The position numbers and the translations under genes were made by a program. Below, one piece after another: positions 9,563 through 38,232 of a DNA stretch of 64,000 nucleotides. Positions within the stretch are counted from its first letter, which is position 1; every line of letters begins with the position of its first letter. Location: NCBI GenBank assembly GCA_949282305.1, contig CASDPB010000039.1:1-64000 (forward strand). The letters run 5' to 3'. Under the pieces are notes generated by a model that searched no databases, was not told the origin of the DNA, and saw only the letters and a program-made list of their open reading frames with translations. The DNA comes from an uncultured Lentisphaeria bacterium (lineage in GTDB: Bacteria; Verrucomicrobiota; Lentisphaeria; Victivallales; UBA1829).

Positions 9563-9591
9563 TTGACAATAATATAGCAGTTTGCTATAAT
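9563..9591 (+). promoter_or_regulatory. Consensus sigma-70 promoter of cassette A regulator
   Basis: TTGACA at 9563-9568 and TATAAT at 9586-9591 are separated by exactly 17 bases, a perfect match to the sigma-70 consensus. The start codon of the GntR-type regulator lies 38 bases downstream of the -10 box. Such a strong promoter is normally held by a repressor, and an operator overlaps it. Confidence 0.85.
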
Positions 9592-9599
9592 ATATAGCA
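9573..9599. promoter_or_regulatory. Probable autoregulatory operator: TATAGCA inverted repeat plus third half-site
   Basis: TATAGCA-GTT-TGCTATA at 9573-9589 is a perfect 7-3-7 inverted repeat filling the spacer and the first half of the -10 box. A third TATAGCA copy lies at 9593-9599, 20 bases after the first. The position predicts steric repression by the regulator encoded directly downstream. Confidence 0.7.
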
Positions 9600-9629
9600 G
9601 AATAGAAATTGTTAAGAAAGGGGGTTGCA

Positions 9630-10754
9630 GTGCAGTCCAAAGTTCAGGCAAAAAGAACGGCGGATATTCGCAAACATCTGTTGCGGCAGATTGAAATCGG
9701 GAATTTCTCCCGCGGCGCAGTTCTTCCATCGGAGCGTGAGCTGGCAGAGCAGCTTGACGCGAGTTATATGACGGTCCGCAAGGCGATCGGGCAGCTGGTG
9801 GACGAATGCTACCTGGAACGGATACCACGAGTCGGAACTTTCGTTTCTTCCCGGGTGTCTGCCAGCAAAGTTCTCCGACAGCTGGGGGTTGTCATCCCGG
9901 CATGGACGGCTCCCGAGAATTCTGATTTCATCATGTACGCGAGCGAGGCTGCTGAACAAAACGGCTGGCTGCCGAAGTTTTATTTTGCCCGCCATTGGGA
10001 AGATCGCACGTTGACTGATGCATGGCAGAACAGCGATGCGCTGCTGTGTGTTCCGCCGCAGTCAGTCAACAGAATGCCTGACGATTTGCTGGAGCGGTTC
10101 CGCAGTCATGAGAAGCCGGTGGTTCTAGTCGGTGTTCCGGCATATCATTTTGGATTGGATACCGTTGCGGGGGCGGTGGAACTGGAGCTTGGGATGCTTC
10201 TTGACCGACTGGCACAGGCGGGGCACATCCGCATTGCGCTGGTCGAGCAGTATACTCTGATGAATGACCAGCTTGAATTGGATACCCCGACATTTTATTC
10301 CGTCTGGAAGCAGCGGATTACCGAAAATCTTGGTGCGGATGCGGTTTCCGAACTGGAAATTCTGGTGGAAACGCCCCGTTTCGAGCTTCCGCACCGGGCA
10401 ATTTATGAAAAATTGAAGGCTTTTGGGCACAAACTGCCATTCAGCGCAATTATTACACGGGTTCCTTTTCTATGGGGGGTGACGGCGGCACTGAGCGATC
10501 TTGGCTTCCGAATACCGGAAGATGTTTCGCTGGTTTCAAACGGCGACCGCCAGGAGGTTCCTTTTTACCGTCCAAAGCTCAGTTACCTTAAAGTTCCGCT
10601 GAGGGATCATGCATTCAAGGCGCTTGAGCTGATTCAGCTCCGTTCGCAGAACCCCAGACTGCCGGTTCAGTATGCGATGATTCAACCGGTATTTATTGAA
10701 GGCGAAACACTGAAAACATTCAAGCATTCAAAGAATGAAAAGAGGGTTTCATGA
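9630..10754 (+). CDS. GntR-type regulator with LacI-like sugar-binding domain (cassette A)
   Basis: This 374-residue protein starts at GTG 9630, seven bases after AAAGGGGG. Residues about 8-75 form a GntR winged helix (IRKHLLRQIEIGNFSRGAVLPSERELAEQL, SYMTVRKAIGQLVDECYLERIPRVGTFVS). The rest is a periplasmic-binding-protein-like sensor (LGVVIPAW, VSLVSNGDRQEVPFYRPKLSYLKVPLRDHAFKALELI), the AraR-like GntR/LacI fusion type. These proteins are usually repressors relieved by a sugar. A consensus promoter with an overlapping palindrome precedes the gene, and a pseudopilin and a secreted hydrolase follow. It is therefore the probable local sensor for the glycan that the hydrolase attacks. Confidence 0.9.
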   Translation: MQSKVQAKRTADIRKHLLRQIEIGNFSRGAVLPSERELAEQLDASYMTVRKAIGQLVDECYLERIPRVGTFVSSRVSASKVLRQLGVVIPAWTAPENSDFIMYASEAAEQNGWLPKFYFARHWEDRTLTDAWQNSDALLCVPPQSVNRMPDDLLERFRSHEKPVVLVGVPAYHFGLDTVAGAVELELGMLLDRLAQAGHIRIALVEQYTLMNDQLELDTPTFYSVWKQRITENLGADAVSELEILVETPRFELPHRAIYEKLKAFGHKLPFSAIITRVPFLWGVTAALSDLGFRIPEDVSLVSNGDRQEVPFYRPKLSYLKVPLRDHAFKALELIQLRSQNPRLPVQYAMIQPVFIEGETLKTFKHSKNEKRVS

Positions 10755-10910: not shown

Positions 10911-11579
10911 ATGAATAAAATTTTTACACTTATAGAGCTTCTCATCGTTATTGCGATCATCGCGATTCTGGCGAGCATGCTGTTGCCCGCTTTAAACAAG
11001 GCACGAGAGAAAGCCAGGGATGCATCCTGCCGTTCCACCTCCAGGGGAATTGGATCGGCTTCATTGCTTTATGCAAATGATTTTGATGGTTTCGTGCCTC
11101 CGACCGGTGGTGTCGGTGCCGACTATGCGAAAAGCAAAAGTTATCCATGGCCGGGCAAACTTGCTTCCTACCTGGGGCTCACAGTAGATTCCAAGTGGCT
11201 GTTTCCGAATGAAGATAAACTTTATAAGCAGTTCATCTGCGCAGCCGACAACCGCGTTCCCAATTACAGTAACAGGCTGACATGGGGAGGAAAACTCAGC
11301 TACGGCATCAACATCAATCTTGCCGGCCGTACCGAACAGCCGTTTCAAAACATTCGGTTCAGTTCCATCCGCAATCCCAGTATGAAATACTTGTTCATGG
11401 ATGCGACTGAACATCGCATTACCTATGATACAGGGCATGTTAGATTTGCCTGGCGTCATAGCGGCGGACGTTTTCTCAATACGGCTTATGCAGATGGTCA
11501 TGTCGGTTCTCTGAGTTACAGAGTGAGACTTACCGGAGCCGATGACGAGACGAAACGAAACTGGAAACCTGATCTTTGA
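10911..11579 (+). CDS. Prepilin-like (pseudopilin) protein, cassette A
   Basis: This 222-residue protein starts at ATG 10911 behind GGGAG; upstream in-frame ATGs would bury the leader. It begins [21 protein letters not shown], a short basic leader followed by the class III prepilin helix with Glu at +5. Position -1 is isoleucine instead of the usual glycine. After the helix come [13 protein letters not shown] and a globular C-terminus ending in [19 protein letters not shown], a variant of the H-x9-DG signature of DUF1559-type pseudopilins. It sits between a sugar regulator and a secreted hydrolase. A surface or periplasmic pilus-associated role is likely; its precise function is not known. 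Confidence 0.88.
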
Positions 11580-11592
11580 GGAGGGATATTTT

Positions 11593-14250
11593 ATGAGAGT
11601 TCCGGCAATCTTGGGAATAATTTTTCTGGCAGCCTTTACTGTGGAGGCGGCTGAGCTGCTCCGCAATCCGCAATTCGATAAATGGAGTGCATCCGGCGTT
11701 CCTTCCGGCTGGACATTGCGCGACACCGGACTGAGACCGGAAGCGCCGCCCCGTCCTGTCGGGCGTCCCGCACTTTCTGCTGCGAACGGAGTGCTGTGTC
11801 TTGATACTGCGGATGGCAGGTATGAAGTCATGCTGATCCAATACCGGCTTCCTCTGAAGAAAGGAAACAATTATGTGCTTGCCTTTGAAGTGAAAGGAGA
11901 CGGCGCTGTTTCCTGGCGTAGTCCGGTTTTCAGACAGGCCACTGCCCCGGGTGGAAAAACGGTTTGGAAAAATACACCTGCCGCATGGAAAGCCGCACCG
12001 CGGGAATGGGAAAGCAGACAGATCATTTTTGATTTTCCCCCTGAGGCAAAGGATGCCTATTTATATTTCGCGGCAACTGGTCCCGGCAAACTGCTGTTGC
12101 GCAATATCCGACTGCGTGAAAATGGAATTGATCTTGAAAGCAGTGCGGAACTTCCGGTTTTCCGTCCGACAGAAACGGTTTCTTATCGGATCGGGTTCAA
12201 ATCTGCCCCGGAAAACATGGTTCGTTACACTCTCCGGAATTTTCTCGGTACTACCGTGGCGAGCGGTACAGCCTCTGACAGGATTCATTTCAGCACTCTT
12301 GCAAATGGCTGGTACGAGCTTACTGCAACGGAAATTAACTCCGCAGGGAAGGCCGTGTCCGCTGCCCGTAGGACATTTGCCGTAATTCCTGAATTTCCGG
12401 CGGAACTGCGTGACGCTCCCGGCAATCAGTTTGGAGTGATGGTCAACCCGCATACCGCATACCCTCTTGACCGGAAGGAACTTGACATGAAATATGCAGC
12501 CCGGATCGGCGTGCGCTATCTGCGCACCCACCGGTTGAACTGGGGGCGCATCCAGTCCGCCCCCGGCGTTCCGTACAACTGGGACGAAGCAGATGCGGAG
12601 ATGGCGTTATATGAAAAATATGGAATTCATCCCGTGGCAACTATAGGCTGGCCGGTGCCGGGATGGGCTTCGAGTGCCGCCGGAACCGGAGAGCCGAATA
12701 TCGGTAATTATTTTCCCCAGGAGAAATACTTGCCGGAATTAAAACGTTTTCACCGCGAACTGGCAGCCCGCTACGGCAACCGAATCGCCTATTATGAAGT
12801 TGGTAATGAAGTGGATGCCTCTAATTTCTGGATGGGACGATATGAAAATTCAAAGCGTGGCGATGAAGATGCGGTATTCCGGGATTATGTGGATTTCTAT
12901 ATTGCAGTCGCATCGGGGCTTCTGGAAGGCAATCCGAAGGCGCAGGTCGGACCGGGAACCACTGGTTCCATGCCGTCCGGGCATACCTACCGCCCATGGC
13001 TGGAACGTTTCTGGGCAGTTCCGGAGGCATTACAGGTCACAACGATCTTCTGTCCGCATTATCAAACGGATATTCCAAAGATACGGGAAGTGATGCGCAG
13101 ACACGGTAAAGAAGTGCCGATTGTTCTGACCGAAATCGGAGGTCTGATTAAGACCCAGAATTATCAGACGACACTGGAAGAACTTCGACAGATCATCAAA
13201 CGCACCTATGTCCAGTATGCCACACAATTGAATCAAGGCGGACTTGCCCTATGCAAATTTCTGCTTCGACAGATTCCGGGAGTTCGCGAAGGCTGGGTTT
13301 CGGAAATGCTTGCCGCCGATTTTGAACTCCGCCCGGAATATGTAGCCTATGCGACTTTAATCCGCATTGTTTCCGGCGGTCGCTTTGAACGGGAACTGAA
13401 TGTGACGGCAAATGCGTCACAGGGCTGGGTTCAAGCCTTCCGCATTATCCGGCCGGATGGTGTCATGAATCTTGTGATGCTGAATGATGCTCCGGAAGCG
13501 GAAGTTGTACTGGAGACACCGGAACAGAAACTGACCGTTACCGATGTAATGGGCAGTTCCCGGACATTCCGTGCACAAAACGGCAGACTTTCACTTGCCA
13601 TGAAAGAAGATCAGCCGCTGTTCATTTCCGGTGAAATCAGGGAAAATCCCGGCCCGGTCAGGCATCCGGAGCCGGTGTTGGTTCTGAAACGCAGGCTTAT
13701 GCTGGAAAATGATGGTTTTGAACAGGGAAAAGGCAGTTCAATTCCCGGCTGGCGCATGATCGTGGATGAAATGGGCGGTATCGGTGGTAACGCTCCGTTT
13801 ACCGTGGAATCCGACCCGAAAGATCGGAGCGAGGGACTCCGTTCTCTTCGGATGTCCGCCAAGGTCCGAACCCGTTGGTATGGTGTTCTCTGCAAGTTGC
13901 CGAAACAGGAGATTCCGGTGCCGAAGACCGGAGAATTTCTGGTTTTTAAAATTGCTTATGATCAGAAACTTGACGGAGTTGCCGGTACCGGTGTGGGAGT
14001 GACGCTTGCTTTCCGCGATGGGAAAATGCGGCGTGTTGGCTTCAATGACGGCAACTGGAGCCGCGGCACTTCCGGCTGGATTCGGAAAACCTGGCAAAGT
14101 CGGAAGTTCGAGGAATTTCCACGCGGTACCGAACAGATCACGCTCGAATTCTATCTCGGGCTTGCCACCGGAACCGTCCAGATCGACCGGGTGTCAGTCG
14201 AAGTGGAACTTTACCGCAAAAGCAATGCGTCAAGCGCATATATCAATTAA
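11593..14250 (+). CDS. Secreted clan GH-A-like glycoside hydrolase with flanking carbohydrate-binding domains (cassette A)
   Basis: This 885-residue protein starts at ATG 11593 after GAGGAGG, with a signal peptide (MRVPAILGIIFLAAFTVEAA). A jelly-roll, CBM-like domain lies at about 20-180 (LLRNPQFDKWSASGVPSGW), followed by a beta-sandwich segment to 270. The (beta/alpha)8-like catalytic region (280-600) carries YYEVGNEVD with the likely acid/base Glu406 and IVLTEIGG with the likely nucleophile Glu514. A second CBM-like domain is at about 705-885 (ENDGFEQGKGSSIPGW). It resembles GH39/GH5-like retaining enzymes, but I cannot name the family or substrate. The preceding pseudopilin ends 13 bases upstream, so the two are co-transcribed. 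Confidence 0.82.
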   Translation: MRVPAILGIIFLAAFTVEAAELLRNPQFDKWSASGVPSGWTLRDTGLRPEAPPRPVGRPALSAANGVLCLDTADGRYEVMLIQYRLPLKKGNNYVLAFEVKGDGAVSWRSPVFRQATAPGGKTVWKNTPAAWKAAPREWESRQIIFDFPPEAKDAYLYFAATGPGKLLLRNIRLRENGIDLESSAELPVFRPTETVSYRIGFKSAPENMVRYTLRNFLGTTVASGTASDRIHFSTLANGWYELTATEINSAGKAVSAARRTFAVIPEFPAELRDAPGNQFGVMVNPHTAYPLDRKELDMKYAARIGVRYLRTHRLNWGRIQSAPGVPYNWDEADAEMALYEKYGIHPVATIGWPVPGWASSAAGTGEPNIGNYFPQEKYLPELKRFHRELAARYGNRIAYYEVGNEVDASNFWMGRYENSKRGDEDAVFRDYVDFYIAVASGLLEGNPKAQVGPGTTGSMPSGHTYRPWLERFWAVPEALQVTTIFCPHYQTDIPKIREVMRRHGKEVPIVLTEIGGLIKTQNYQTTLEELRQIIKRTYVQYATQLNQGGLALCKFLLRQIPGVREGWVSEMLAADFELRPEYVAYATLIRIVSGGRFERELNVTANASQGWVQAFRIIRPDGVMNLVMLNDAPEAEVVLETPEQKLTVTDVMGSSRTFRAQNGRLSLAMKEDQPLFISGEIRENPGPVRHPEPVLVLKRRLMLENDGFEQGKGSSIPGWRMIVDEMGGIGGNAPFTVESDPKDRSEGLRSLRMSAKVRTRWYGVLCKLPKQEIPVPKTGEFLVFKIAYDQKLDGVAGTGVGVTLAFRDGKMRRVGFNDGNWSRGTSGWIRKTWQSRKFEEFPRGTEQITLEFYLGLATGTVQIDRVSVEVELYRKSNASSAYIN

Positions 14251-14259
14251 GCAGTCAAT

Positions 14260-16903: not shown

Positions 16904-19900
16904 TTATTTTTCCTGAAGGGATTCCGCAAGGCGCAGCAGTTCCACTCTGCATGACGCCATGGTTTCACAGTCCCCCTGAATTGCGCGACTTACGATTTCA
17001 TCCAGTTTCTTTTGCGCTTCAGGATTTTCTTTCCGTTTCAGCAGCTGACGGCAGAGCTTTGCCGCCTTATAGTCGTAAAGCCCCTGAAAATGCGCTTCCA
17101 TGCGGCGGCTGGTGAGTGCCTTTCCGAAATTGAAATCGGCGTAGACGGTGCCGTAGTCAGTTCTGTTCTTCCTGTTGTAGCGGTTGGAGTCGTAGGGGTT
17201 GAATCCGTCGCCGCCCGCCATGCCGTCGATATGCCAGAACGCCGCGACGTCATCCACTCCGTCGCGGAAATTTTCCCAGTAAATCCGCCGGTAAACTTCC
17301 GGCGCCGTTTCCTTCTGAAGAATGTTGTAGGTCCAAAGTTCGCGTTTTGCCTCTTTGACAACCCTGATGGTTTCCGGTGTCACCATTTTCGGACGGTAAA
17401 GTTCGATGATGTCGAACAATTCACAGCAGCGTTTCAGAGTTTCCAGATATTCCTGATCCGGCTGTTTTGAAAACGGATTGATCATGATGCGGCATTCGGG
17501 CAGAGCTTCCTTGATCAGTTTGCCGAATTTGAATGCCAGGTGGTTTTTGGAGTTCGGGTCGTCTATCTTTCCATTGGGTTCATCGACGGGGTAGAATATG
17601 ATACGTTCCGGGGACAATTTATATTCCTCCCGGATGTGCGACACCAGCTCTTTCAGGAAGGTTTTTGCCGCCTTATCCCATTGCGGAGTTCCGAAGGCGC
17701 AGGGGGGAGGAGTGACTTTACCGCCCTTCCGGGATTCCCCTTTTTCTCTGCTGACGGGTTCGCTGTAATACAGACGTGTCCAGGTGTGTTCCCAGCCAAG
17801 ATAAAAGCAGGCGGAAAGTTCATCGGCAGGGACGCCGGAGGCGATTAGACCGTCAAACACTCTGTCAATCTGGGTAAAGTCACAGGGGCCGATATTGCCG
17901 TCGGCGTCAACTTTCGGGAAGGCGACGTTGAAAGGAGCCATGAAATTAATTCCGTGTTCCGCCAGAAAACGGGTCAACGGTGAAACTTCTCCCTTTTTCA
18001 GAAGATCCTCATGAAATGTATAAGGACGTTCAAGATAAGTGTAATTGAAATTTTTAACAAACACTTTCCCGAGATCAGGCGTCAGCACTTCAAGCTCAAA
18101 GGGCACTTTTTCCAGAGCGAACCCCTGATCGGCAGGTTTCAGAACGAGAGTTCCCGTATAATTTCCCGCCGGAAGATCGGCGGTGGAAAGCTCCATCCAG
18201 AGCGGAACGGTGCTTTTCGGAGGGATCCGCAGCAGCGTGTTCAGAGGCAGGGGAACCATGGCGTCGTAAAGAGTGGCTCCGGATGTGGTCGTCTGGGGAA
18301 TTCCCTCCTGTATTCTGACTCTGCTGAACAGTTCATGAAAAGCCGAATCATACGAAAAGGAATTCTCATTTGTTTTGGAGGGATATTTCCCCGGGAAAAG
18401 TTTGATCTGTCCGAGAAACGGTTTGTCGGTGAGGTTGGATACTGCGAATCCATAGAGAACTCTGCTGTTTCTTGCGGAAACGAGTGCGATCTTCTCCAGC
18501 GGACGCGAGACCATGGAGATTTCGACGTCATTTCCCCATACGTCCGGTTTCCAGATCAGTGCGGAACATCCTGCAAGGCGCATGGCAACCATGGATTTCC
18601 GGAGGTTTTCCAGCTGATTTTCCAGCTTGTTGAAACAGGCGGGATTGTCGCCGGAGATATTGTTGAGCTTTTCCGCTTCGGCGAATTGTTTTTCCATTGC
18701 CGCTTTCGGCTCTCCGGTTGAATTCCGGTGCGCAAGTTCTTTTTTCAGCTGGGCAATCCGCCGGGAGAAATACGCCTTGCGGGAACTGAAGATCAGTTTG
18801 CCGAACTGTTCCGGATTATGGAAAATGGAACCGACCGGCGCCCAGGTGGAAAGCCCGCCGCAGGATGCACCTGTCCGGGTAAAATTGCCGGAAGCCGTCA
18901 TTCCCGGTTCAAATTTGTCCAGCCCGATTTCCGATCCGGGAATCTGCATCTCGACGGAGTAACCGTTTCCGGCGCGTGAAACATTGCAGACGGCTTTGCT
19001 CTGAAATGCCTTGTCCTGATTCCCCGTTGCGGAAAAGCGCATTGCTTTGAACTTGCCATTGGCTCCGGCGGCAAACTGGTAATAGACCGGTGATTCAAGA
19101 TCGGGACGGAAAAAGAATTCCACGCACTCCTTCCACAAAGAATCTCCGACCTTGGGTTCTATTTTCATATCCCCGGGAACAGGGCATTGAAAATAGACAT
19201 GAAGAGTGCTGTCTTCATATCGGAGTGCCGCCCGCGAGGCGTTTTCCACAAATTTATCTTCGGCTTTATGGTAATTGCCGGCGGGTCCTGTCTCTCTGTC
19301 CAGGATTTGGAAAGGCGCACTCCATTCTTTTTCCTTTCCGCTGATCAGGACATAATTCCATGTCCCGGCGTTTCCAGTGGCGGCGGAAAGGGCCGGCGGT
19401 TCTTCGTAGCTTTTCCAGATTTTCAGGTCATCCACAACGCCGAAAAGCGGTGATTCCGCTTTCGACGGATTCCGCGGATTGCAGCCCAGGGACACCTGCG
19501 GGTACCATTCGTAGTTTTTTCCGTCATTCAGGTCGGAAAGCGCAAGCGCATTCTCTTTGCCCGCAACCATTTCTCCGTCCAGCCAGATTCTCGCGGGACC
19601 GCCTGATTTTGACGCAACGCGGACCGTATACCACTTCCCCGGCTGCCAGGAACGTTTTTCCGAAGAGAAGGTGAACTGTTTGGCGACTGTTTTTTCCGGC
19701 ATTTTCAGTCTGCGGAAATCACCGGTCAGTTTTCCGTTTCTGTCGATATAAAGAAGAAAGCGGGCACGGTTCCATGAAGTGTGTTCGTATGCGAAAAGAT
19801 AACGGGGAGCGGCGGAATCGGCGCGGTCAAGTTTGAATTTCAATTCCGCCGTCCATTCTCTGCAGTCAAGAGGCAGAACAATCTGGTTGCGTTTTTTGCC

Positions 19901-22071: not shown

Positions 22072-22073
22072 TA

Positions 22074-28652: not shown

Positions 28653-29546
28653 ATGAAAAAGGAATTGAGCATTCTGGTAGCAGGAATCCTCGCAGGGACA
28701 CTTTGTGCGCAAAGCGCGGTTACAGTCAAGCAGAAACAATACAGAGGTTGGAAAGCAAGGGATTTTACCTATAATCAGCAGGCGGAGATTGTGAACGACA
28801 AGAATTTCTACCAATTCAATCTTCTTCAATATCAGCCGGATAAAGACGGAAAGATGCAAACGTTCATGAACATTTCCGCGCCGCGGCAGGAATGGGGATT
28901 CGGGCGGGCGCCGATCAACTTTCTTTCCATTACGGTCAACGGAATCAGGGAGCGGAATCTTCAGCCGAACGAGGACAGCTTCAAGACATGGACAAAACCG
29001 GATTCCGCCGGTGTCACGGTAACATTGAACTTCGATGGAGCCGGAGTTGTTTTTGACGCCTACATGAAGAAAGGATCGCCGGTGCTCTGGTTTACATTCC
29101 GCCAGCCGGAGAAACAGCTCGAACCGATCAGGAGCATCACGATCAAAACGGCATTGGTGATTTCGCGTCTGTTCAGCAGGAACGGTGTCACCGTCTGGGA
29201 GGGCGCCTACAACCGTCAGGCGCAGACCGCCGCCAGAACGCTGGAACAGCGGAAAGCGGTCTATCCGCTGGATGCCGGGGATCAGTATGTCATTTTCAGC
29301 GATAAAGTGCTGGATGGCTCGGACAAGGACAAGGGATTCGGTCCGTCCTTTCTGGCTTTCGGCATGAACGGCGTCAAAAATGCGAGCCTGTTTCTCGGCA
29401 ATTCATGGGAGAACAACATCACTTTCACCCTGAATCCGGATTTCCGGGAATTCCGTTTTGGCATCTGGCAGCAGAAGAATGCGATCACCAATCAGGATTT
29501 CATGAATCTTTTTGAAAAGGAAAAAGATTCCTTTCTGCTGAAATAA
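28653..29546 (+). CDS. Secreted protein of unknown function (cassette C)
   Basis: This 297-residue protein starts at ATG 28653 after GGGAG, with a signal peptide ending near GTLCAQSA. The mature part is rich in alternating hydrophobic strands (INFLSITVNGIRERNL, GVTVTLNFDGAGVVFDAYM, PVLWFTFRQPE, FREFRFGIWQQ). This suggests a single beta-sandwich, perhaps a galactose-mutarotase-like or carbohydrate-active accessory fold. No catalytic motif is evident. It is the last gene of cassette C, 116 bases after the DUF4838 gene, and probably acts on the same substrate outside the cell. Confidence 0.7.
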   Translation: MKKELSILVAGILAGTLCAQSAVTVKQKQYRGWKARDFTYNQQAEIVNDKNFYQFNLLQYQPDKDGKMQTFMNISAPRQEWGFGRAPINFLSITVNGIRERNLQPNEDSFKTWTKPDSAGVTVTLNFDGAGVVFDAYMKKGSPVLWFTFRQPEKQLEPIRSITIKTALVISRLFSRNGVTVWEGAYNRQAQTAARTLEQRKAVYPLDAGDQYVIFSDKVLDGSDKDKGFGPSFLAFGMNGVKNASLFLGNSWENNITFTLNPDFREFRFGIWQQKNAITNQDFMNLFEKEKDSFLLK

Positions 29547-29764: not shown

Positions 29765-29782
29765 ATTTCAAGTACTTGAAAT
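29765..29782. promoter_or_regulatory. LacI-type operator, perfect 18-bp palindrome (cassette D)
   Basis: ATTTCAAGTACTTGAAAT at 29765-29782 is a perfect 18-base palindrome that covers the -35 box of the next promoter. The size and central symmetry match LacI-family operators. A LacI-family gene begins 58 bases downstream, so autoregulation is likely. Confidence 0.75.
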
Positions 29783-29803
29783 TTTTTCTGTTTTGATTAT
29801 AAT
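29776..29803 (+). promoter_or_regulatory. Sigma-70 promoter of cassette D
   Basis: TTGAAA (29776-29781) and TATAAT (29798-29803) are 16 bases apart, and the -35 box lies inside the palindromic operator. The regulator start codon is at 29840. Confidence 0.75.
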
Positions 29804-29839: not shown

Positions 29840-30838
29840 ATGATTTCACTGAAGGAAATAGGAAGAATCTGCGGGATTTCGGAGTCGACCGTATCCAAGG
29901 CGCTCAAGGGGAATCCCGCCATCCGCCGTTCCACGGCGCAGCGGGTGGCGGAAGTCGCGCGCAAATACGGCTACCAGCCCAATGCCATGGTTCAGTGCAT
30001 GCAGACCGGACAGAGCCGCAGCATCGGGATTGCCTACAATAATTTCCGCTGTCAGTTCGCCGGTCAGGTCATGGAGGGAATCCAGCAGGTTCTGCATGAA
30101 AATAATTACGATTCCTTTGTCATTCAATGGGATAAGCTGGTCAAGGACAAGATCGAACTTCTCGGACGGTTTGCCCGCCGCCGTGTGGACGGCATCCTGC
30201 TGTTTCCGCCGGAAGCCGCCGATCCGGGGGAACGTCTTGCGGAACTGCGGAACATCCACAGTCCCATTGTCGTGATTGATCAGCGCTGGCCGGGGCATGA
30301 CTTTGATTATGTCGGGAGCAGCAACCGGAAAGGGATGTATGAGCTTGTTTCTTTCCTGATCGGGCGGGGGTATCGAAGATTCGGCGTGATCTCCTTTCCG
30401 TCAACGAGTTCCGGCGAGGAACGCAAATCCGGTTTTCTGGATGCGATGTTTGAGCATAAGCTGCCGGTCGACGCCTCCCTGCTGGCGGTTGCCGAAGAAC
30501 CGCACCTGAGCCCTTATGAGGCTGCCCGTTCTCTTCTGGAACGCCCCGACCGTCCGGAAGTGCTGGTCTGTTTCAATGATTACATCGCCCGGGAGGCGCT
30601 CAATGCGGCGTGGGACCTGGGGATTCGCATTCCGGAGGAACTGGCTGTGACCGGGTTCGGCAATCTGCCGCTGTGCGATCTGGTTCGTCCGCGGCTTACC
30701 ACCGTGGATCAGTTTTCATTCGAGACCGGGGTTGCCGCCGCCCGTCTTATTCTTGAGCGGATTTCAAGCACTGGAAATCCGGAGCGGCGCGATATTGTGA
30801 TTGATACGAAAGTAGTCATACGTAATTCAACCCGTTAA
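29840..30838 (+). CDS. LacI-family transcriptional regulator (cassette D)
   Basis: This 332-residue protein begins with the LacI headpiece ([47 protein letters not shown]), including the recognition helix STVSKAL and the hinge. The sensor domain contains [91 protein letters not shown] and [12 protein letters not shown]. These repressors release DNA when a sugar binds. A perfect palindrome covers the promoter, and a near copy lies in its own 3' end just before the pseudopilin gene. It is the predicted controller of cassette D. The ribosome binding site is weak (GAGAGAGACG). Confidence 0.93.
30761..30778. promoter_or_regulatory. Possible auxiliary operator inside the LacI gene
   Basis: ATTTCAAGCACTGGAAAT at 30761-30778 differs at only two positions from the palindrome at 29765. 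It lies in the last 80 bases of the regulator gene, 72 bases before the pseudopilin start. Auxiliary intragenic operators are well known for lac-type repressors. Coding constraint could also explain part of the match. Confidence 0.5.
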
Positions 30839-30849: not shown

Positions 30850-31596
30850 ATGAAAGGAATCTTCATGATGAAGACGGCAAATCTCCGGAACAGGAGCAGT
30901 TTCACTTTGATAGAGCTCCTCGTCGTAATTGCGATTATCGCGATTCTGGCATCAATGCTGCTGCCCGCACTGAACAAGGCGCGCGAGCGGGCAAAGGCAA
31001 TGCAATGTCTCAGCAACGTCAAACAAGCTGTTCAGGGGTGTTTTCTTTATGCGGATGACTACAAGGGAATGCTGATGCGGCCCCACATTGAAAATTCCAG
31101 GCCGACTTACTGGGCAACTCTGCTGATGGACGGCAAATACATCTCTTCCGGAAAGACGTTTTTCTGTCCCGACCAGAAAAATAAAAACACATGGGCTGAT
31201 TCCAATGCCCGGTATACTTACGGCTTGAACCGCAATCTGGCACGGGACAACCGGGACAATGCCGCCGGTTATTATGTCAATATCTATGCACTGGACAAAT
31301 TGCGGGAAAACGGCAAACAGACACTTGCGCCATCCATCACCTGGCTGGTCGGAGACAGCATCATGCGGAGCACCGCAGGGGCGGACAATCTGACGAGCTG
31401 CGCCATTCTCAGCTGGAACAACGGTGCGGAGGGACTCCCTTCTCTGCGGCACAGCCGGCAGGCGAACATGGGATTTCTTGATGGCAGTGCAAGAGCCACC
31501 GGAGCGGACAAGATGCACAGGATTCATCCGCAGATTGAGGAATGGGCATACAATGACTCGCAAATCATCAGGCAGCTTCCGGGAACTTCTCTTTAA
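30850..31596 (+). CDS. Prepilin-like (pseudopilin) protein, cassette D
   Basis: This 248-residue protein starts at ATG 30850, eight bases after AAGGAG. It has a long basic leader ([17 protein letters not shown]), then [17 protein letters not shown] with serine at the predicted -1 position instead of glycine. An ATG at 30865 would give a shorter leader. [23 protein letters not shown] follows. The globular part has [12 protein letters not shown] and [11 protein letters not shown], and ends with [16 protein letters not shown], an exact H-x9-DG signature. It starts 11 bases after the LacI stop and is followed 44 bases later by the CBM-GH protein. The same order occurs in cassettes A, B and C. Confidence 0.88.
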
Positions 31597-31640: not shown

Positions 31641-34600
31641 ATGATGAATAAAACAGTTTTCTCCATTCTTGCAATGTCCGCCGGCATTGCGCTCCACGGC
31701 GCTCCCGCTTTTACCAATCCGTCGTTTGAACAGGGAACGGGAGGCTATTGGATTAACAATTCCTCCGCCGCAAGAATTGATCCGGGCGATTCGACGGACG
31801 GCAGACAGAGCCTCGGAATCAAAGTGGTTCCCGGCAAAACGGTCAGCGTCGTTCAGGGACTCGCCTACGAAGCGAATCAGTATTACAAAATCAGCTTTGA
31901 CGCCAAAGGCAGTGACGCCGTACTGCGGCTTCAGGTCATGCTTCAGGGAAAGAAGCCGCTCCAGTTCTTCAATGATCCGGAACTCAAGAAGGCAATCCGG
32001 CTCACGGAGGAATACAAACGCGTGACTCTGGAACTTGGCCCGTTCCCGGAGGCGGTCAACGGCAATGAAGTCAAAAAACTGATGATTTACTTCAATGTCA
32101 CCGGCGACAAGGAAGGCGGCAAAGTCAATCTTGACAATCTTTCCGTTGAACTGAAAGCGGCCGCCAGGACTTCGGCAAAGTCCATTCTGAAGAACGGTTC
32201 CTTTGAACAGGGGCTGGCACAGTACTGGGTCAACCGCCGCAAATGTGCGGAAGTTGATTCCACGGCGGCAAGTCATGGACGCAGAAGTTTAAAGGTGACT
32301 CCGGAAGATAAGACCGTCGATCTGGCGCAGGGCGTTCCGATGAAGCCGGGGGAGATTTACTCCATCCGTTTCGATGCAAAAAGTTCCACCCCAGAAAACG
32401 GACCGGTGCTGAAACTGGGCGTGCTGATGCGCGGCAAGAAGCCTCTGGCTTATTTTTCCGCCAGAGGGGAGCAGAAAAGATTTGCCGAGGCGGTTCCGCT
32501 GGAAGGCGACTTCAAGACGTTTGAATATGAGCTTGGTCCTTTTCCCGAAGACTGGCGCGGGACGAAAATTGAAAGCCTGATGTTTTACTGGCACATCAAG
32601 CCGGGAACAAATCCCGGATCGGTTCATCTTGACAATCTTCAAATCGAAACCGCACCTGCGGCGCAAAAAAAAAATAACGGAATAGTATTTCAGTTTCCCG
32701 GCGACATCCGCATCTTTGAAAAAGGATTTCCGCTGAAAGTTTCTCATGGCGCCGGAACGGGAATCCTGAAGGTGCGCGGCGTCAACGCGCTCGGCAAGGA
32801 ACTTTTCTCCGCGGAATCGAAGCCGGGCAGACCGGAAGTCACCATTCCCGTTTCCGAACCCGATTACTATGCCGTTACCGCCGAAGTTCTTGAAAACGGC
32901 AAAGTGGTCAAGCAGGCGCAAAGCACATTTGCGGTCACTACGCCGCTTCCCGAAGATTATTACACCACATCACAGCCGGCTTTCGGCGTATGGGGCGGTC
33001 TGAATCCGGAACTCCGGCGTCTCGGCGGAGCGAAATGGGACCGCCAGCTTTTCTTCACGATTTTCCAGAAAAAGGATTTCCAGGCGGTCGAACCGAGTCC
33101 CGAAGCGATTGCCGCCCGGGAGCCGGTCAACATCATCCGCTGCATGAATATCCTGAATCCGTTCAAAAGAATGGTGCCGGTGAAGCAGGAGGAATGGCCC
33201 GAACTGGAAAAGCGGCTTGAAAAAGACATTCTTTCCCGGAAAGGGCTGGTTCAGGTATGGGAGACCCAGAACGAACCGATGGTCGGAGAGAACTTCCACG
33301 GAACCATGAACGATGTCATGGACATCATCCGTTTCGAGAGCCGGATTGTCCGCAGAATCGACCCCAAAGCCGCCATTGCGGGAATCTGCATCAACCCGAT
33401 GAACGCCAATCAGTACAATCAATACCTCGGTTACTACCGGAACCATGACATCGGCCGTCTGATTGACGGCGTGATGCTGCATCCTTATATTCCCGGAGCG
33501 CAGAACCCCGATCTTGCCGGATATGTCGAGACGCTCAACCGGCTGAACCGCGAACTTTCCGCGATTGCGGGCAAACCGGTTCCGATGTATATCAGCGAAA
33601 TCGGCTATTCCGCCAAACCCGGCGGCGAAGTGACCGAATACCAGCAGGCAGCCTATCTTGCCCGCGTGATGATCCTGAATTTTACGATTGAAAACCTCAA
33701 GGCGTGCGTCTGGCATATCGGGCTCTGGAATGAAGCGACTTCCCGGCGTGAACTGGATTTCGCGCTGATCCGCAAGCAGGAGCCGGGCAGCAAGGTCTAT
33801 CAGCCGAAGCCCTCCTTTGCCGCGTGGGCGACGGCGTCGCGCATGCTTTACAATGCAAAACTTCTGCGCGAACTCAACGTTGGCAAGACCATGCGCGTCT
33901 GGCTTTTCGAGAAAGAGGGAAAACCGATGCTGATCGCTTATTCCCTGATTCCGGAACCGGTGCGGATGCAGCTTGCCCTGCAGGCGCCGTCCGCGGAAGT
34001 GGTGGATGTCTGCGGACGCCGTTCCACCGTAAAATGCAGGGACGGCATTCTGAATCTCGAACTCGGAGAGGGACCCGTCTACATTTCCGGCGGGACGCTC
34101 GACCAGTTTGCCGCAGGGAAATTCGACGCGGTCTTTACTCCCGATGCTCTTTCCGCAGTTCCCGGAGGAACGCTCAACGTGAAGATCCGGCTGCCGGAAC
34201 ATCTCGCCGACAACGCGAAACTGCGTCTTCAGCCGTTCCGGGCGGGCAAAGGGGAACTTTCCGGCAGCGGGCGCAACTGGACGCTGAAACTCAGGATTTC
34301 ACCTGACGCACCTCTCGGCGACAGCGATCTGTTCCTGATGCTCAGCCGGAACGGTGTCAACCGTTACATCTGGCAGAAACTTCTGCATGTTCAGCCGAAA
34401 CTGGAACTTGCCGATGTAAAGCCCTGCGAGAAAGACGGACTTCCCGCATTGTCCTTCCGCCTGCGTGCCAATGACCCGGCACAGCGCCAGGCGAAAGTCG
34501 AAATTCTTGCCGAACCGGATCGCGTCATCGGCAGCGGCACCGCACGCACCGGGGCGGAGACAATTCTGCCTCTGCCGGACGCGGTCGTTTCCGCACGCCC

Positions 34601-35309
34601 GACCCGCTATTTTGCGCGGTTGACGCCGCCCGACGGGAAGTCTTTCCGCGTGACATTGGCAGGCAATCCGGTCCCGGTCGGAATTCCCTATTGCGCGAAT
34701 GCGGTGAATCTGCCTGTCAGCCAGTGGCCTGCGCGCGGCGTTTACCGACTTGAAACCGGAACATACAGTCGTCATGCGCTCAAAGGCGAGGCGGACCGCC
34801 CGACGGGCAGACTTTATCTGGCATCCGATGAGAATTACCTGTATCTGGCGTGCGATGTAAAAGACCGTGAGTTCCTGCCGGCTTCGGAAGCCGCCTCCCT
34901 CTGGAACGGAGATTCGCTTCAGATCGGGATCAGCGTGCCGCAGACGGATATGTTCCGTGCCAACAACGACGGGATTCAGGAGACCGCTTACGCAGAATTC
35001 GGGGTCGCCGCCGACAACCGTTCGTGGGTGTGGGCGAGCATGAACCTGAACCGCATGCCGCTGGCTGCGCCGATTCCGAAACTGATTTCAAAAAGCACCG
35101 TTGCGAACGGCACGCAATGTTACCGTGTTGCCATCCCGTGGGAATCGCTGAATATCCGCTACCGCGCCGGACTGACGCTCAAACTGAGTGTATTGGTCAA
35201 TGACCGCGACCGTGCGGGACGTCACTGGCTGGAGTGGTTCGGCGGAATCGCCGACGGCAAGGATCCCGGTGCTTATGGGGAAGCTGTAACACTGGAGAAA
35301 CGCAAATGA
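31641..35309 (+). CDS. Secreted glycoside hydrolase with two CBM4/9-like and one CBM9-like domain (cassette D)
   Basis: This 1222-residue protein starts at ATG 31641 or 31644 after GGAAAGGA, with a signal peptide ending near ALHGAPA. Two similar CBM_4_9-like jelly rolls follow (about 24-172, FTNPSFEQGTGGYW; and 182-338, ILKNGSFEQGLAQYW), then an Ig-like segment. The (beta/alpha)8-like catalytic region (445-790) has VWETQNEP with likely acid/base Glu545 and MYISEIGYS with likely nucleophile Glu653. The C-terminus (about 1050-1222) is CBM9-like (LYLASDENYLYLACDVKDRE, LWNGDSLQIGI). The catalytic Glu spacing equals that in the cassette A hydrolase. A retaining GH39/GH5-like enzyme is likely; substrate unknown. 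It overlaps the esterase gene in ATGA. Confidence 0.83.
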   Translation: MMNKTVFSILAMSAGIALHGAPAFTNPSFEQGTGGYWINNSSAARIDPGDSTDGRQSLGIKVVPGKTVSVVQGLAYEANQYYKISFDAKGSDAVLRLQVMLQGKKPLQFFNDPELKKAIRLTEEYKRVTLELGPFPEAVNGNEVKKLMIYFNVTGDKEGGKVNLDNLSVELKAAARTSAKSILKNGSFEQGLAQYWVNRRKCAEVDSTAASHGRRSLKVTPEDKTVDLAQGVPMKPGEIYSIRFDAKSSTPENGPVLKLGVLMRGKKPLAYFSARGEQKRFAEAVPLEGDFKTFEYELGPFPEDWRGTKIESLMFYWHIKPGTNPGSVHLDNLQIETAPAAQKKNNGIVFQFPGDIRIFEKGFPLKVSHGAGTGILKVRGVNALGKELFSAESKPGRPEVTIPVSEPDYYAVTAEVLENGKVVKQAQSTFAVTTPLPEDYYTTSQPAFGVWGGLNPELRRLGGAKWDRQLFFTIFQKKDFQAVEPSPEAIAAREPVNIIRCMNILNPFKRMVPVKQEEWPELEKRLEKDILSRKGLVQVWETQNEPMVGENFHGTMNDVMDIIRFESRIVRRIDPKAAIAGICINPMNANQYNQYLGYYRNHDIGRLIDGVMLHPYIPGAQNPDLAGYVETLNRLNRELSAIAGKPVPMYISEIGYSAKPGGEVTEYQQAAYLARVMILNFTIENLKACVWHIGLWNEATSRRELDFALIRKQEPGSKVYQPKPSFAAWATASRMLYNAKLLRELNVGKTMRVWLFEKEGKPMLIAYSLIPEPVRMQLALQAPSAEVVDVCGRRSTVKCRDGILNLELGEGPVYISGGTLDQFAAGKFDAVFTPDALSAVPGGTLNVKIRLPEHLADNAKLRLQPFRAGKGELSGSGRNWTLKLRISPDAPLGDSDLFLMLSRNGVNRYIWQKLLHVQPKLELADVKPCEKDGLPALSFRLRANDPAQRQAKVEILAEPDRVIGSGTARTGAETILPLPDAVVSARPTRYFARLTPPDGKSFRVTLAGNPVPVGIPYCANAVNLPVSQWPARGVYRLETGTYSRHALKGEADRPTGRLYLASDENYLYLACDVKDREFLPASEAASLWNGDSLQIGISVPQTDMFRANNDGIQETAYAEFGVAADNRSWVWASMNLNRMPLAAPIPKLISKSTVANGTQCYRVAIPWESLNIRYRAGLTLKLSVLVNDRDRAGRHWLEWFGGIADGKDPGAYGEAVTLEKRK

Positions 35310-35962
35310 TGCAGACAAACGAACTGTTTACCGTTCAGGATCGAGAGGAGATTTATGCGTTTTTCCGGACTCGCGACCGCTGGCGCGATATTGTCCGCTG
35401 GCGGACGCTTGAACACGGCCCGGTGGATACGGTCTTTTACGGAGATTCCATCTTCGAGCTCTGGCCGACCGCGGAGGCGTTTCCGGAGCTGTCCCATTTG
35501 AACCGCGGCATCGGCGGCGACAATATCAACGGTCTTTATTTCAGGCTTGACGAGGACATCTTCCCGAATTCTCCCAGGCAGGTGGTAATCAACATCGGAA
35601 TCAACGGGATCGAACGGGATTTCGATGATTCCGTCGCCCGTCTGAAATTCGTCGCCGGACTGATGCGCGAGCGCGGCATTCGTGTCTGGTGCAACAGCAT
35701 TGCGCCGCTGCGGGCGCCCGATGCGTGGGATCGCTTTCAGTATCAGGAGAAGATCGTGGCGTTGAATGAGGTGTGCCGTGAACTTTTTGAACGGGAGTTT
35801 GCCGGATTCTTCGACCTCCATGCGTTGCTTCGCGATTCCAGCGGGCAGCTTGCCGCCGAATATGCCCTGCCGGACGGAACACATTGGACTTTTGCCGCGT
35901 ATCAGGCGGCGTCGAAACTGCTGCGGGAGAAACTGCTGCCGGAAGGGAAGGGAAAACGATAA
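35306..35962 (+). CDS. SGNH/GDSL-type esterase, probable sugar deacylase
   Basis: This 218-residue protein starts at ATG 35306, overlapping the hydrolase stop, with GGAG eight bases upstream. The SGNH blocks are in order: TVFYGDSIFELW with the nucleophile Ser (block I), NRGIGGDNINGL (block II Gly), VVINIGINGIE (block III, Asn within GING) and DGTHWTFAAY with the Asp-x-x-His pair (block V). No signal peptide is evident, so it is probably cytoplasmic. Its placement between a secreted hydrolase and a symporter suggests removal of acetyl or other acyl groups from imported oligosaccharides. A phospholipase-like activity is a less likely alternative. Confidence 0.88.
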   Translation: MMQTNELFTVQDREEIYAFFRTRDRWRDIVRWRTLEHGPVDTVFYGDSIFELWPTAEAFPELSHLNRGIGGDNINGLYFRLDEDIFPNSPRQVVINIGINGIERDFDDSVARLKFVAGLMRERGIRVWCNSIAPLRAPDAWDRFQYQEKIVALNEVCRELFEREFAGFFDLHALLRDSSGQLAAEYALPDGTHWTFAAYQAASKLLREKLLPEGKGKR

Positions 35963-38232
35963 TGACGTGGCTTGACTGGTTGATTGTAGTTGTCCCGATC
36001 GTTCTGCTGATCTGGGTGTCGGTCTATTCGCGGAAGTATGCGCGGGGCGTGGTGGATTTCCTTGCGGCGGGACGGATCGCGGGACGGTATGTGATGTCTG
36101 TGGGAGATATGGCAGCGGCGCTGTCCGTGATTACGCTCGTCGCGGGCGCGGAGCAGTATTATCAGACCGGATTTGCGGTGAGTTTCTGGGGGGCGGTTAC
36201 GGCTCCCGTCGGCGTATTCATGGCATTGACCGGATATTGTCTGTACCGCTGGCGCGAAACACGGTGTCTCTCCATGGGACAGTTCCTCGAACTGCGTTAC
36301 GGGAGCAAGTTTTTCCGTGTGTTCTGCGCGGTTCTGCGCACGGTTGCGGAGATGGTCACAAACGCCATCGGCCCCGCCATCGCGACGAACTTTTTCATCT
36401 ACTACCTCGGACTTCCGCACCGGATCACGATCATGGGGATCAATCTGCCGTGCTACGTAATCATCGTGACGCTCTGCCTGTGCCTTGCGATGGTGTTCAT
36501 CTGGCCGAGCGGACGCATTTCGCTTCTGATTACGGACTGTTTCCAGGGACTTCTCAGCTATCCGATTTTCGTGATCGTCGTAGGTTATGTCATTCTGAAT
36601 TTCTCTTGGACGGATGACATTGCGCCGGTCATGTGGAACCGTGTTCCGGGGCAGAGTTTCATGAATCCGTATGACATCTCGCAGCTTCGCGATTTCAATA
36701 TTTTCGCGTTGATCGTGACTCTGCTCGGTTCCGTCCTGAACCGTGCGGGCTGGATCGGGAACGATACCAGCGGCACCGGCAAGACGCCTCACGAACAGAA
36801 GATGGCGGGCGTGCTCGGCGCCTGGAAGAACGGTTTTTCCTACATGATGATCCTGCTGCTGGCAATCGTGGTGATCGTCTTCATGACGAGTCCGCACTTT
36901 GCGCACTCCGGGAACAAGTTCAAGGTCTCCAGCACGGAAATCCGTCAGGAACTCTCCGCGAAGATTCTGGACAGCGTCATTTCCGATCAGGCTGTCAGGA
37001 CGAAAGTCATGGATGAGATTCACCGGATTCCGGAAACGTTCACGGAAAAGGAGTGGGAACAGCCGCTTTCCCAGCAGAAAAATCCCGATACGCCTTATTT
37101 CAACGCGGTGCGCAACACGCTCGGCGACACGCCTGAAGCGCGCTACCAGTTCCAGAAATACCGTTCGCTTTACCAGCAGATGATGATGCCGTCGGTAGTC
37201 AGTAAAATCTTCCCGGCGGGAATGTTCGGATTGTTCTGTCTCCTGATGATAATGCTGCTGATCTCCACGGACGACAGCCGCATCTTCAACGCTTCCTCGA
37301 CGCTGATGCAGGACGTGATCCTGCCGATGTTCAAGGGGCGTCTGGACCAGAAAAAGCATCTGCTTCTCCTGCGCCTGACGAGCGTCGGCGTGGCGGTCTT
37401 TTTCCTGATCGTGTCGGTCTTCTTCGCCCAGCTGGACTACATCAACATGTTCACGACGATCATGTGCGCGGTATGGCTCGGCGGCGCGGGCCCGATCATG
37501 GTCTTCGGGCTTTACAGCCGCTTCGGCAATCTGACCGGCGCATGGTGTGCGATCATTTTCGGTTCGGGCACCTCCCTGCTCGGACTGATTCTCCAGCGCA
37601 ACTGGGCGCAGAGCATCTATCCCATGCTGGAACGGCTCGGTATGGTGGAATCGCTGAACACTTTCCTCGAAACGGTTTCCGCGCCGTTCAATCCGTGGAT
37701 TGCCTGGAGCATGGATCCCGTCAAGTTCCCGATCAATTCGTTCGAGATTTACTTCATATCCATGATCCTTTCCGTCGGCGGCTACATCGTCGGCTCGTAC
37801 CTCACCTACAAGCCTTACGATCTTGACAAACTTCTGCATCGGGGTGTTTATGCGGACGCTCCCGAACCGCCGAAAGAACGCTGGACGCTCCGGAACGTCT
37901 TCAGCAAAATCATCGGCATCACGGAGGAATATACGCTCGGTGACAGGATCATCGCCTATTCGGTCTTCGGCTACTCAATCGTCTACCAGATCGGGATCGT
38001 CTTCCTTTCGATTGTAATCTGGAACGCAATCTATCCGTGGCCGCACGAGTGGTGGACGATCAAGTTTTTCATTACCTCGCTGGTCGTCCCCGGCATCGTG
38101 GGAGTCATTTCGACGGTCTGGTTCCTGATCGGCGGCATCCGTGACGCCCGCAGGCTTTTCATCGATCTCGAAAAACGTGTCGAAGACCCCGACGACAACG
38201 GACAGATCCTGAATTCGGGAGACGGCAGGTAG
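35962..38232 (+). CDS. Sodium/solute symporter (SSS family) with a large soluble loop
   Basis: This 756-residue membrane protein starts at ATG 35962, its A shared with the TAA of the esterase gene. SSS features include VDFLAAGRIAGRYVMSVGDMAAALSVITLVAGAEQYYQTG, ETRCLSMGQFLELRYGSKFFRVFCAVLR and AEMVTNAIGPAIATNFF, with 13 or more hydrophobic helices. Between helices, residues about 310-410 form an unusual soluble loop (HSGNKFKVSSTEIRQELSAK to RYQFQKYRSLYQQMM). The family imports sugars, amino acids or organic acids with sodium. As the last gene of cassette D, it is the likely importer of the released sugar. C-terminal helices include GIVFLSIVIWNAIYPW. Confidence 0.9.
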   Translation: MTWLDWLIVVVPIVLLIWVSVYSRKYARGVVDFLAAGRIAGRYVMSVGDMAAALSVITLVAGAEQYYQTGFAVSFWGAVTAPVGVFMALTGYCLYRWRETRCLSMGQFLELRYGSKFFRVFCAVLRTVAEMVTNAIGPAIATNFFIYYLGLPHRITIMGINLPCYVIIVTLCLCLAMVFIWPSGRISLLITDCFQGLLSYPIFVIVVGYVILNFSWTDDIAPVMWNRVPGQSFMNPYDISQLRDFNIFALIVTLLGSVLNRAGWIGNDTSGTGKTPHEQKMAGVLGAWKNGFSYMMILLLAIVVIVFMTSPHFAHSGNKFKVSSTEIRQELSAKILDSVISDQAVRTKVMDEIHRIPETFTEKEWEQPLSQQKNPDTPYFNAVRNTLGDTPEARYQFQKYRSLYQQMMMPSVVSKIFPAGMFGLFCLLMIMLLISTDDSRIFNASSTLMQDVILPMFKGRLDQKKHLLLLRLTSVGVAVFFLIVSVFFAQLDYINMFTTIMCAVWLGGAGPIMVFGLYSRFGNLTGAWCAIIFGSGTSLLGLILQRNWAQSIYPMLERLGMVESLNTFLETVSAPFNPWIAWSMDPVKFPINSFEIYFISMILSVGGYIVGSYLTYKPYDLDKLLHRGVYADAPEPPKERWTLRNVFSKIIGITEEYTLGDRIIAYSVFGYSIVYQIGIVFLSIVIWNAIYPWPHEWWTIKFFITSLVVPGIVGVISTVWFLIGGIRDARRLFIDLEKRVEDPDDNGQILNSGDGR

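Follow-up and report, generated by a model that had tools for sequence, protein, structure and literature searches.

The window, a 64,000-nucleotide stretch of DNA from an uncultured Lentisphaeria bacterium (assembly GCA_949282305.1, label G000, 4.36 Mb in 132 contigs; window C39:1-64000), carries four gene cassettes in which a one-component sugar regulator (R) is followed on the same strand by a prepilin-like protein, here called a pilin (P), and a large exported protein (S). These four cassettes are a sample of a genome-wide plan, as the full R-P-S triple occurs 51 times in the assembly. We read each cassette as a self-repressed catabolic operon whose pilin would be built by a type IV pilus machine and would hold the cell or its enzymes to a glycan, and put the probability of this reading at about 0.55. 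The initial annotation had described four copies; all twelve genes are present with the order and strands it gave, and four is an undercount for the genome as a whole.

Genome-wide recurrence of the gene order

Pilins were counted by matches to N_methyl at E ≤ 0.001, giving at least 122 places with 150 of 187 candidates scored. The 122 include one pseudopilin gene of a type II secretion system (T2SS), and eight further pilin-like genes in the fetched stretches were excluded. Genes were called in 108 stretches around pilins outside the window and in 12 control stretches by a custom hexamer and dynamic-programming caller, with a bonus for open reading frames bearing a prepilin motif. Regulator classes were assigned by profiles built from helix-turn-helix (HTH) matches; the LacI and GntR labels in the neighbour counts are those of whole-length profiles and are not equal to HTH type. 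Signal sequences were scored by a hydropathy rule, which overlooks some genuine signals and passes some membrane proteins.

A GntR- or LacI-class regulator lies directly upstream of 63/122 pilins on the same strand (4/122 have no upstream gene within their stretch). An exported protein directly follows 82/122, and 51 of these also have the regulator upstream; the same hydropathy rule scores 36/192 control genes as exported. The initial annotation had proposed comparing neighbour frequencies with a shuffled order, and this comparison places the R-P-S order far above chance: 51 triples vs a mean of 1.4 and a maximum of 6 in 1000 label shuffles within stretches, in which overlaps cause a few genes to be counted twice (124 pilin labels for 122 pilins). 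Neither reverse order exceeds expectation (P-R 3 vs 7.9, S-P 14 vs 20.1), and regulators followed by an exported protein with no pilin between them are scarcer than expected (R-S, 4 vs 13.1). In control stretches, only 2/170 gene triples have the order regulator, any gene, exported protein.

The pattern is also seen from HTH coordinates alone. A GntR, LacI, or AraC domain lies 0.5–2.2 kb upstream on the same strand of 61/122 pilins, whereas 2000 random placements on pilin-bearing contigs averaged 4.8 and never exceeded 14. Of the regulator domains in the genome, 35/71 GntR and 25/58 LacI (43%) are placed upstream of a pilin, against 3/65 AraC, which therefore serves as an internal control.

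In L085 (C108) a pair consisting of a pilin and a 598-aa protein is duplicated; a perfect sigma-70 promoter lies 250 nt before each copy of the pilin, with no called regulator between. SSF symporter-like genes directly follow a pilin in three stretches (L018:6015, L045:5741, L049:6844); the SSF-like gene near a pilin that was checked by Pfam is the one in the window at 35962-38232, which comes after the enzyme and esterase genes of cassette 4.

Promoter placement and putative operators

Perfect TTGACA-16/17-TATAAT promoters occur three times in the window, each directly ahead of a cassette regulator, and not once in 100 shuffles. Within the full triples, sites that deviate from the consensus at one position at most lie within 150 nt upstream of 36/50 regulators (one of the 51 was dropped as it has < 150 nt of upstream sequence), 2/51 pilins, and 0/51 enzymes, with 6/81 control genes preceded by such a site. 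In 1.6 Mb there are 64 perfect sites, of which 45 precede a called LacI/GntR-class gene, nine a pilin, and six another gene, while the remaining four have no called gene within 400 nt; the choice of stretches around pilins biases these totals but not the comparison within cassettes. HTH matches coincide with three of the four gene-less sites and one of the six before another gene. In other genomes a regulator follows the perfect site in 10/12 and 10/11 cases. The placement of the promoter ahead of the regulator, and hardly ever of the pilin or enzyme, makes each triple look like one repressor-controlled transcript, and cotranscription is the simplest reading of this arrangement. A terminator scan of the window found no excess over shuffles.

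Perfect-consensus sigma-70 promoters in G000 and in loci L125-L244 stand mostly before LacI/GntR sugar regulators, and those in the control stretches do so in 4/4 cases.

A few operator-like sites are conserved. The probable operator of cassette 4 in the window is a perfect palindrome, TTTCAAGTACTTGAAA (29766..29781, +), which overlaps the −35 box. Fifteen of its bases are kept ahead of the orthologous regulator gene in L125, from a Victivallis sp. metagenome-assembled genome (MAG), at nearly the same distance from the gene in a region otherwise little alike. A 13-base core of it is found in 2/250 loci, namely L125 and L145, in the latter once and within a coding gene. A second site, ATAGCACGAGCTAT, is common only to the cassette regulator of L022 and its relative in L231, which has two copies, and the L013/L210 regulator pair shares 29 upstream bases. 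Palindromes with arms of at least 6 lie upstream of 27% of LacI-class regulators (n=49) vs 9% in shuffles, a modest enrichment. The conserved operator-like sites differ from cassette to cassette, with no search aimed at one shared operator made.

Exported proteins downstream of the pilins

Many of the proteins after the pilins match glycan-active Pfam families, while exported control proteins mostly do not. The scan covered 63 of 80 complete exported downstream proteins and returned 12 DUF4838, eight CBM9_1, seven LamG, six beta-helix, six GH67 N-terminus, and five GH123_N matches; GH5, GH42, GH20b, NAGidase, and heparinase were each matched once or twice. Among the 32 exported control proteins are five HlyD-type and three RND-type transport proteins, along with various proteins of the envelope; a carbohydrate esterase and LamG are each matched once in the 25 of 41 families shown. 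Neither SusC nor SusD was found in the scanned set, which comprised the proteins of the window cassettes and the 63 downstream ones and not the rest of the genome.

The pilin family

By their sequence matches, the cassette pilins are members of one known family, the DUF1559/H-X9-DG prepilins. N_methyl is matched by 58/58 pilins at E ≤ 0.01 and SBP_bac_10 (DUF1559) by 45/58 at the same threshold; as the pilins were selected with a pattern that includes the Glu of FTLIE, conservation of this residue is not an independent test. The four window pilins are FTLIELL-type N_methyl proteins with weak, N-terminal DUF1559 matches, one of which passes the Pfam cut-off (23.9 vs 23.3) with the other three below. 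The alignment holds 118/122 pilins, four having been dropped for a short head or lack of the motif. Beyond the N-terminal helix, two cysteines are kept in 100% and 99% of the aligned pilins, and in the H-X9-DG region His is kept in 99%, Asn in 87%, Asp in 86%, and Gly in 91%. Strict H-X9 spacing, followed by DG or AG, is found in 72/120. The C-terminal domains had been described as differing between cassettes. Variants do exist, but the domains are not unrelated, as one head and a core are common to the 118 aligned pilins. Model TIGR04294 is matched by 29/58 at E ≤ 1, the first member scoring 11.6 bits vs a cut-off of 19. The Verru_Chthon models score the cassette 4 pilin below their cut-offs (TIGR02596 21.5 bits vs 70; TIGR02599 13.1 vs 256.5).

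The AlphaFold model of the cassette 4 pilin, made from 58 sequences with a predicted local distance difference test score (pLDDT) of 75.3, consists of a long helix and a small sheet, a modelled pilin fold. Its best VIA match is PilA4, with a modest Z of 5.3 and a root-mean-square deviation of 3.0 over 114, and each of the eight structures listed is either a type IV pilin or a pseudopilus. Foldseek alone found no match in the PDB at E ≤ 0.001. The pilin sequence profile matches type IV pilins and GspG through its N-terminal part.

The family name SBP_bac_10, matched by 45 of the 58 members, together with the symporters present in some cassettes, would suit a pilin that acts alone as a surface-anchored receptor for glycans or oligosaccharides, feeding importers in the manner of a bindosome and forming no fibre. 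This seems quite improbable given that the model has a pilin fold whose best structural matches are type IV pilins and not a periplasmic binding protein, and that the SBP_bac_10 matches in the window span only ~30–60 residues beside the N-terminal helix.

Assembly machinery

The initial annotation proposed that each cassette couples the sensing of one glycan to a dedicated pseudopilin and enzyme; a dedicated secretion pseudopilin is not the likeliest reading. A T2SS operon on C31 encodes a secretin, an E-type ATPase, and GspG (150.6 bits vs a cut-off of 88.85). It also has an F-like gene, recognised by eye, and genes resembling those for H, I, J, and K, identified from their position in the operon together with weak matches below threshold. 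The window pilins score 26–34 bits against the GspG model TIGR01710, cut-off 88.85, and are not encoded in the gsp operon. At L031:3189-12499 the T2SS operon is followed after ~245 nt by an H-X9-DG pilin as well as a 407-aa protein whose start is signal-like.

Genes of a type IV pilus system are split between loci. Within the window, a PilB/GspE-type ATPase with an MshEN domain (60380..62089, +), a possible assembly motor for the pilins, and a second PilB/GspE-type ATPase with an MshEN domain (62120..63826, +) are followed by the start of a PilC/GspF-type platform protein (63846..64000, +) which runs past the window (L247:5847-7121). PilM and two secretins are encoded on C47, and a PilD-like peptidase, one of three A24 matches, at C39:113133-113987. 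No pilin was found in the 10 kb around the PilB/PilC set or the 13.5 kb around the PilM/secretin set. As the T2SS has its own pseudopilin-like genes while the type IV pilus loci have no adjoining pilin, exchangeable type IV pilus subunits are favoured, and the dispersed pilins are natural candidates for use by this machine.

Alternatively, each cassette pilin could join the T2SS pseudopilus and help to export the adjoining enzyme. The number of P-S pairs (83 vs 20.4 expected), the homologous downstream proteins kept by close pilin orthologues in 5/10 pairs, and the H-X9-DG pilin and 407-aa signal-like protein placed right after the gsp operon are all consistent with this role. We consider it unlikely, as the operon already holds GspG and the H- to K-like genes, the similarity of enzymes tracks that of pilins at no more than r = 0.05, and in three called cases the gene next after the pilin is symporter-like (gaps of 15, 149, and 358 nt) rather than an enzyme.

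Two markers were of little use in comparing machinery among the 31 genomes of the order. The T2SSK model was dropped as a T2SS marker, being found in 3/31 genomes and missing G000 despite its GspK-like gene. PilM is present in 31/31, with one match below the family cut-off, and does not separate genomes with expanded pilin sets from those without.

G000 also encodes two standalone H-X9-DG pilins with no sugar regulator directly upstream (L044:3514-4242 and L103:6780-7556). Their orthologues (L205:7008-7709, L209:5058-5762, L213:5460-6182, L234:7103-7645) all have the H-X9-DG motif; three genomes of the same genus hold close ones, and the one in G024 is weaker. This conserved subfamily is thus shared across the genus and with a more distant relative in the order.

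Conservation in other genomes

The named loci from other genomes are the best 80 of at least 431 confirmed, with phylum labels taken from the record titles. Those labelled Lentisphaerota have a regulator upstream in 17/52 cases, an exported protein downstream in 24/53, and the triple in 7/48, vs 0/25, 2/27, and 0/24 for those labelled Verrucomicrobia and 3/21, 5/20, and 3/20 for those with other labels. The description of a Lentisphaerota-style locus thus stands insofar as the ordered, promoter-headed unit recurs across Lentisphaerota and was found at 0/24 testable Verrucomicrobia-labelled pilins, while the dedicated pseudopilin in that description is not the likeliest reading. In 40 stretches from 11 relatives, chosen among the top N_methyl matches listed, a regulator is upstream in 18/56 cases and an exported protein downstream in 32/51, with 12/51 full triples. 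The cultured Victivallis vadensis DSM 14823 carries the same plan (L146, L167), and hence the idea can be tested at the bench.

Seven G000 regulators have relatives of > 42% identity; four of these also have a recognisably related pilin head, and three a related enzyme after it. When pilin heads match at ≥90 bits, the downstream proteins are homologous in 5/10 pairs and the upstream ones in 3/7, compared to 80/14364 and 47/11865 among background pairs. At 60–90 bits these fall to 1/11 and 1/8. Some cassettes therefore appear to persist as units at short distances and to be reassorted at longer ones. At the orthologue of cassette 4 in the Victivallis sp. MAG (L125:5995-7907), two successive pilins lie between the regulator and the enzyme, both related to the single cassette 4 pilin of the window.

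Within the genome, the idea that a pilin is matched to its own enzyme fares poorly, although close orthologues tend to keep their partners. Strict pilin–enzyme co-divergence was rejected, as the two methods used disagree and both give weak values. BLAST-based comparison (n=61) gave r 0.01 (p 0.35) for pilin–enzyme, r 0.13 (p 0.001) for pilin–regulator, and r 0.12 (p 0.0002) for regulator–enzyme similarity. The alignment-based values were r 0.05 (p 0.0006; n=107, duplicates included) or r 0.034 (p 0.10; n=58) for pilin–enzyme, r 0.048 (p 0.14; n=61) for pilin–regulator, and r 0.143 (p 0.0006; n=58) for regulator–enzyme.

First-look pilin candidates range from 13 to 262 per genome across 31 genomes of one order. 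This spread, the weak pilin–enzyme correlation, and the duplicate pair in L085 would be expected if the pilin were a generic, interchangeable surface pilin with no tie to its neighbours, and the cassettes spread as selfish or easily duplicated units. Such a view is very doubtful in light of the strict gene order and promoter placement, the whole triples kept across species in 3/7 regulator-orthologue pairs, and the numbers of pilin and Peripla_BP_3 sugar-regulator candidates, which rise together across the 31 genomes (Spearman 0.89; partial 0.67 with genome size removed).

Proposed mechanism

The reading of the cassettes as self-repressed catabolic operons builds on the gene order and its frequency, the promoter placement, the few conserved operator-like sites, the pilin family, the modelled pilin fold, and the machinery genes. 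From these we infer repression and an inducer, cotranscription, use of a type IV pilus rather than a T2SS, and binding of glycan or enzyme. Expression would start from the strong sigma-70 promoter, close to consensus, that precedes the regulator gene, and the LacI or GntR-LacI regulator probably represses this promoter by way of an operator particular to its cassette. A sugar from glycan breakdown would release the repressor, after which a single transcript would supply the regulator, the pilin, and the glycan-active protein to be exported. A PilD-like peptidase probably cleaves the pilin, and the type IV pilus machine, with its two PilB-type ATPases, PilC, PilM, and secretins, would assemble it into a shared fibre or attach it to one, so that the cell or its enzymes are held to the glycan under digestion.

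A number of results weigh against this mechanism. By either method, 58/122 pilins have no recognised GntR/LacI regulator upstream, and 35 downstream neighbours were scored as non-exported, some of which look like misses of the crude rule. Same-strand gaps between control genes have a similar median to those in cassettes, and gap length was dropped as evidence for operons. Upstream palindromes also occur at 14% of control genes and 12% of enzymes (shuffles 4%), and 4/7 regulator-orthologue pairs share no upstream 11-mer. Pilin similarity tracks enzyme similarity only weakly (r = 0.01–0.05) and, for pilin heads matching at 45–60 bits, homologous neighbours number 0/83 downstream and 1/63 upstream; the former, together with the weak correlation, makes a strict pilin–enzyme lock unlikely. 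Other T2SSE, secretin (e.g. C23, C33), and A24 peptidase matches lie elsewhere in the genome. Finally, the standalone L044 and L103 pilins may be the real, housekeeping subunits of the type IV pilus, in which case the cassette pilins would be accessory ones.

A broader and more tentative proposal, which we hold to be possible at somewhat less than even odds, is a glycan-programmable type IV pilus in Lentisphaerota, in which tens of alternative pilins, many behind their own sugar repressor and near-perfect promoter, are swapped into a shared fibre. If true, attachment and exported enzymes would be matched to the glycan at hand, giving a pilus-based counterpart of SusD. The arrangement suggests that the bacterium fits its surface fibres to the sugar being eaten, and points to a way in which bacteria could operate many pilin-centred operons for glycan use.

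The cassettes of the window

The regulators of cassettes 1–3 are fusions of a GntR HTH to Peripla_BP_3, a LacI-type sensor, and that of cassette 4 is of the LacI family; the GntR or LacI HTH and Peripla_BP_3 are above cut-off in 4/4. All four third genes pass the hydropathy rule for a signal sequence. Their description as glycan-active holds mainly through binding domains, as another recognised domain, DUF4838, is present in cassette 3 alone. The short or overlapping junctions reported initially are borne out by the measured gaps. From pilin to enzyme these are 13, 45, 33, and 44 nt in cassettes 1–4, and from regulator to pilin 156 nt in cassette 1, a 4-nt overlap in cassette 2, 19 nt in cassette 3, and 11 nt in cassette 4.

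Cassette 1 is headed by a TTGACA-17-TATAAT promoter (9563..9591, +) with 12/12 consensus bases, and an inverted repeat, TATAGCA...TGCTATA, lies between and over both boxes. The initial annotation began its region at 9563, the first base of this perfect promoter. The regulator (9630..10754, +) has a GTG start preceded by a Shine-Dalgarno-like GGGGG, with an alternative start at 9609. It is followed by an H-X9-DG-type prepilin (10911..11579, +) and an 885-aa exported protein (11593..14250, +) with a CBM_4_9 match below cut-off. A structure model of this exported protein was discarded at pLDDT 32.

Cassette 2 lies on the reverse strand and consists of a TTGACA-16-TATAAT promoter (22074..22101, −), regulator (20944..22041, −), overlapping prepilin with the motif variant H-X9-AG (20138..20947, −), and 1062-aa exported protein (16904..20092, −) with LamG just above cut-off. 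Amidohydrolase and methyltransferase genes follow on the same strand (14749-16781, −); judged by eye, the amidohydrolase may be a GlcNAc-6-phosphate deacetylase.

Cassette 3 has a TTGACA-16-TATAAT promoter (23985..24012, +), regulator (24066..25208, +), prepilin (25228..26007, +), and 831-aa exported protein with DUF4838 and CBM9 (26041..28536, +). After it lies a gene for a 297-aa protein with a signal-like N-terminus and no Pfam match (28653..29546, +).

Cassette 4 has a TTGAAA-16-TATAAT promoter matching 11/12 consensus bases (29776..29803, +), followed by the regulator (29840..30838, +), the prepilin whose model has a pilin fold (30850..31596, +), and a 1222-aa exported protein with CBM_4_9 and a sub-threshold CBM9 (31641..35309, +). 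By Pfam, it continues with a GDSL-type esterase/hydrolase (35306..35962, +) and a sodium:solute symporter (SSF; 35962..38232, +), a candidate sugar importer.

PDB sequence searches gave no match for the third-gene proteins of cassettes 1, 2, and 4, and for that of cassette 3 only two xylanase-module matches, over the CBM9 region.

Comparison with known systems

SusC/D-type polysaccharide utilisation loci (PULs) and carbohydrate-active enzyme (CAZyme) gene clusters combine, at a single locus, a regulator with exported proteins that act on glycans and, in some cases, an importer. Compared to this general description, a pilin stands in the place of SusC/D in the cassettes and the regulators are of the one-component LacI/GntR type. 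No open-access paper was found whose title or abstract describes a regulator-pilin-enzyme cassette, subscription papers and preprints lying outside the search. Any genome can be searched for the promoter-regulator-pilin-enzyme signature and, as many pilins travel with a regulator and an enzyme, their predicted substrates can be read from their neighbours. The cassettes also offer a testable role for a protein family of unknown function that has expanded greatly in the Planctomycetota-Verrucomicrobiota-Lentisphaerota group.

Expansion of this pilin family with signal-peptide neighbours is already known in Planctomycetes, as are carbohydrate-binding pilins elsewhere. Tuwongella immobilis is described as encoding 100 N_methyl proteins, 91 of which also have DUF1559/SBP_bac_10, with these two-domain proteins often flanked by signal-peptide genes (PMC8567305), and 68 DUF1559 paralogues are given for Planctopirus limnophila (PMC10632474). 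These are the same prepilin family with a similar expansion as here, but the descriptions cited, as far as they are drawn on, mention no upstream sugar regulator or promoter-headed triple.

The T2SS pseudopilin GspG has the N-terminal helix and prepilin motif in common with the cassette pilins, with a weak NCBIfam score. In the Sulfolobus bindosome, sugar-related surface proteins with class III signals are reported to be displayed via a type IV-pilus-like system (PMC4471445). These are archaeal sugar-binding proteins, whereas the cassette pilins are known by their pilin head and their ligand is putative. Among bacterial pilins, the minor pilin PilC of S. sanguinis carries a lectin module and is reported to bind carbohydrate (PMC9934059), and the type IV pilin PilA1 of R. 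albus is reported to bind cellulose (PMC4471445). The lectin module of PilC is an addition for which Pfam finds no equivalent in the window pilins. In contrast to PilC and PilA1, the genome described here has > 100 pilins, about half of which stand behind their own sugar regulator.

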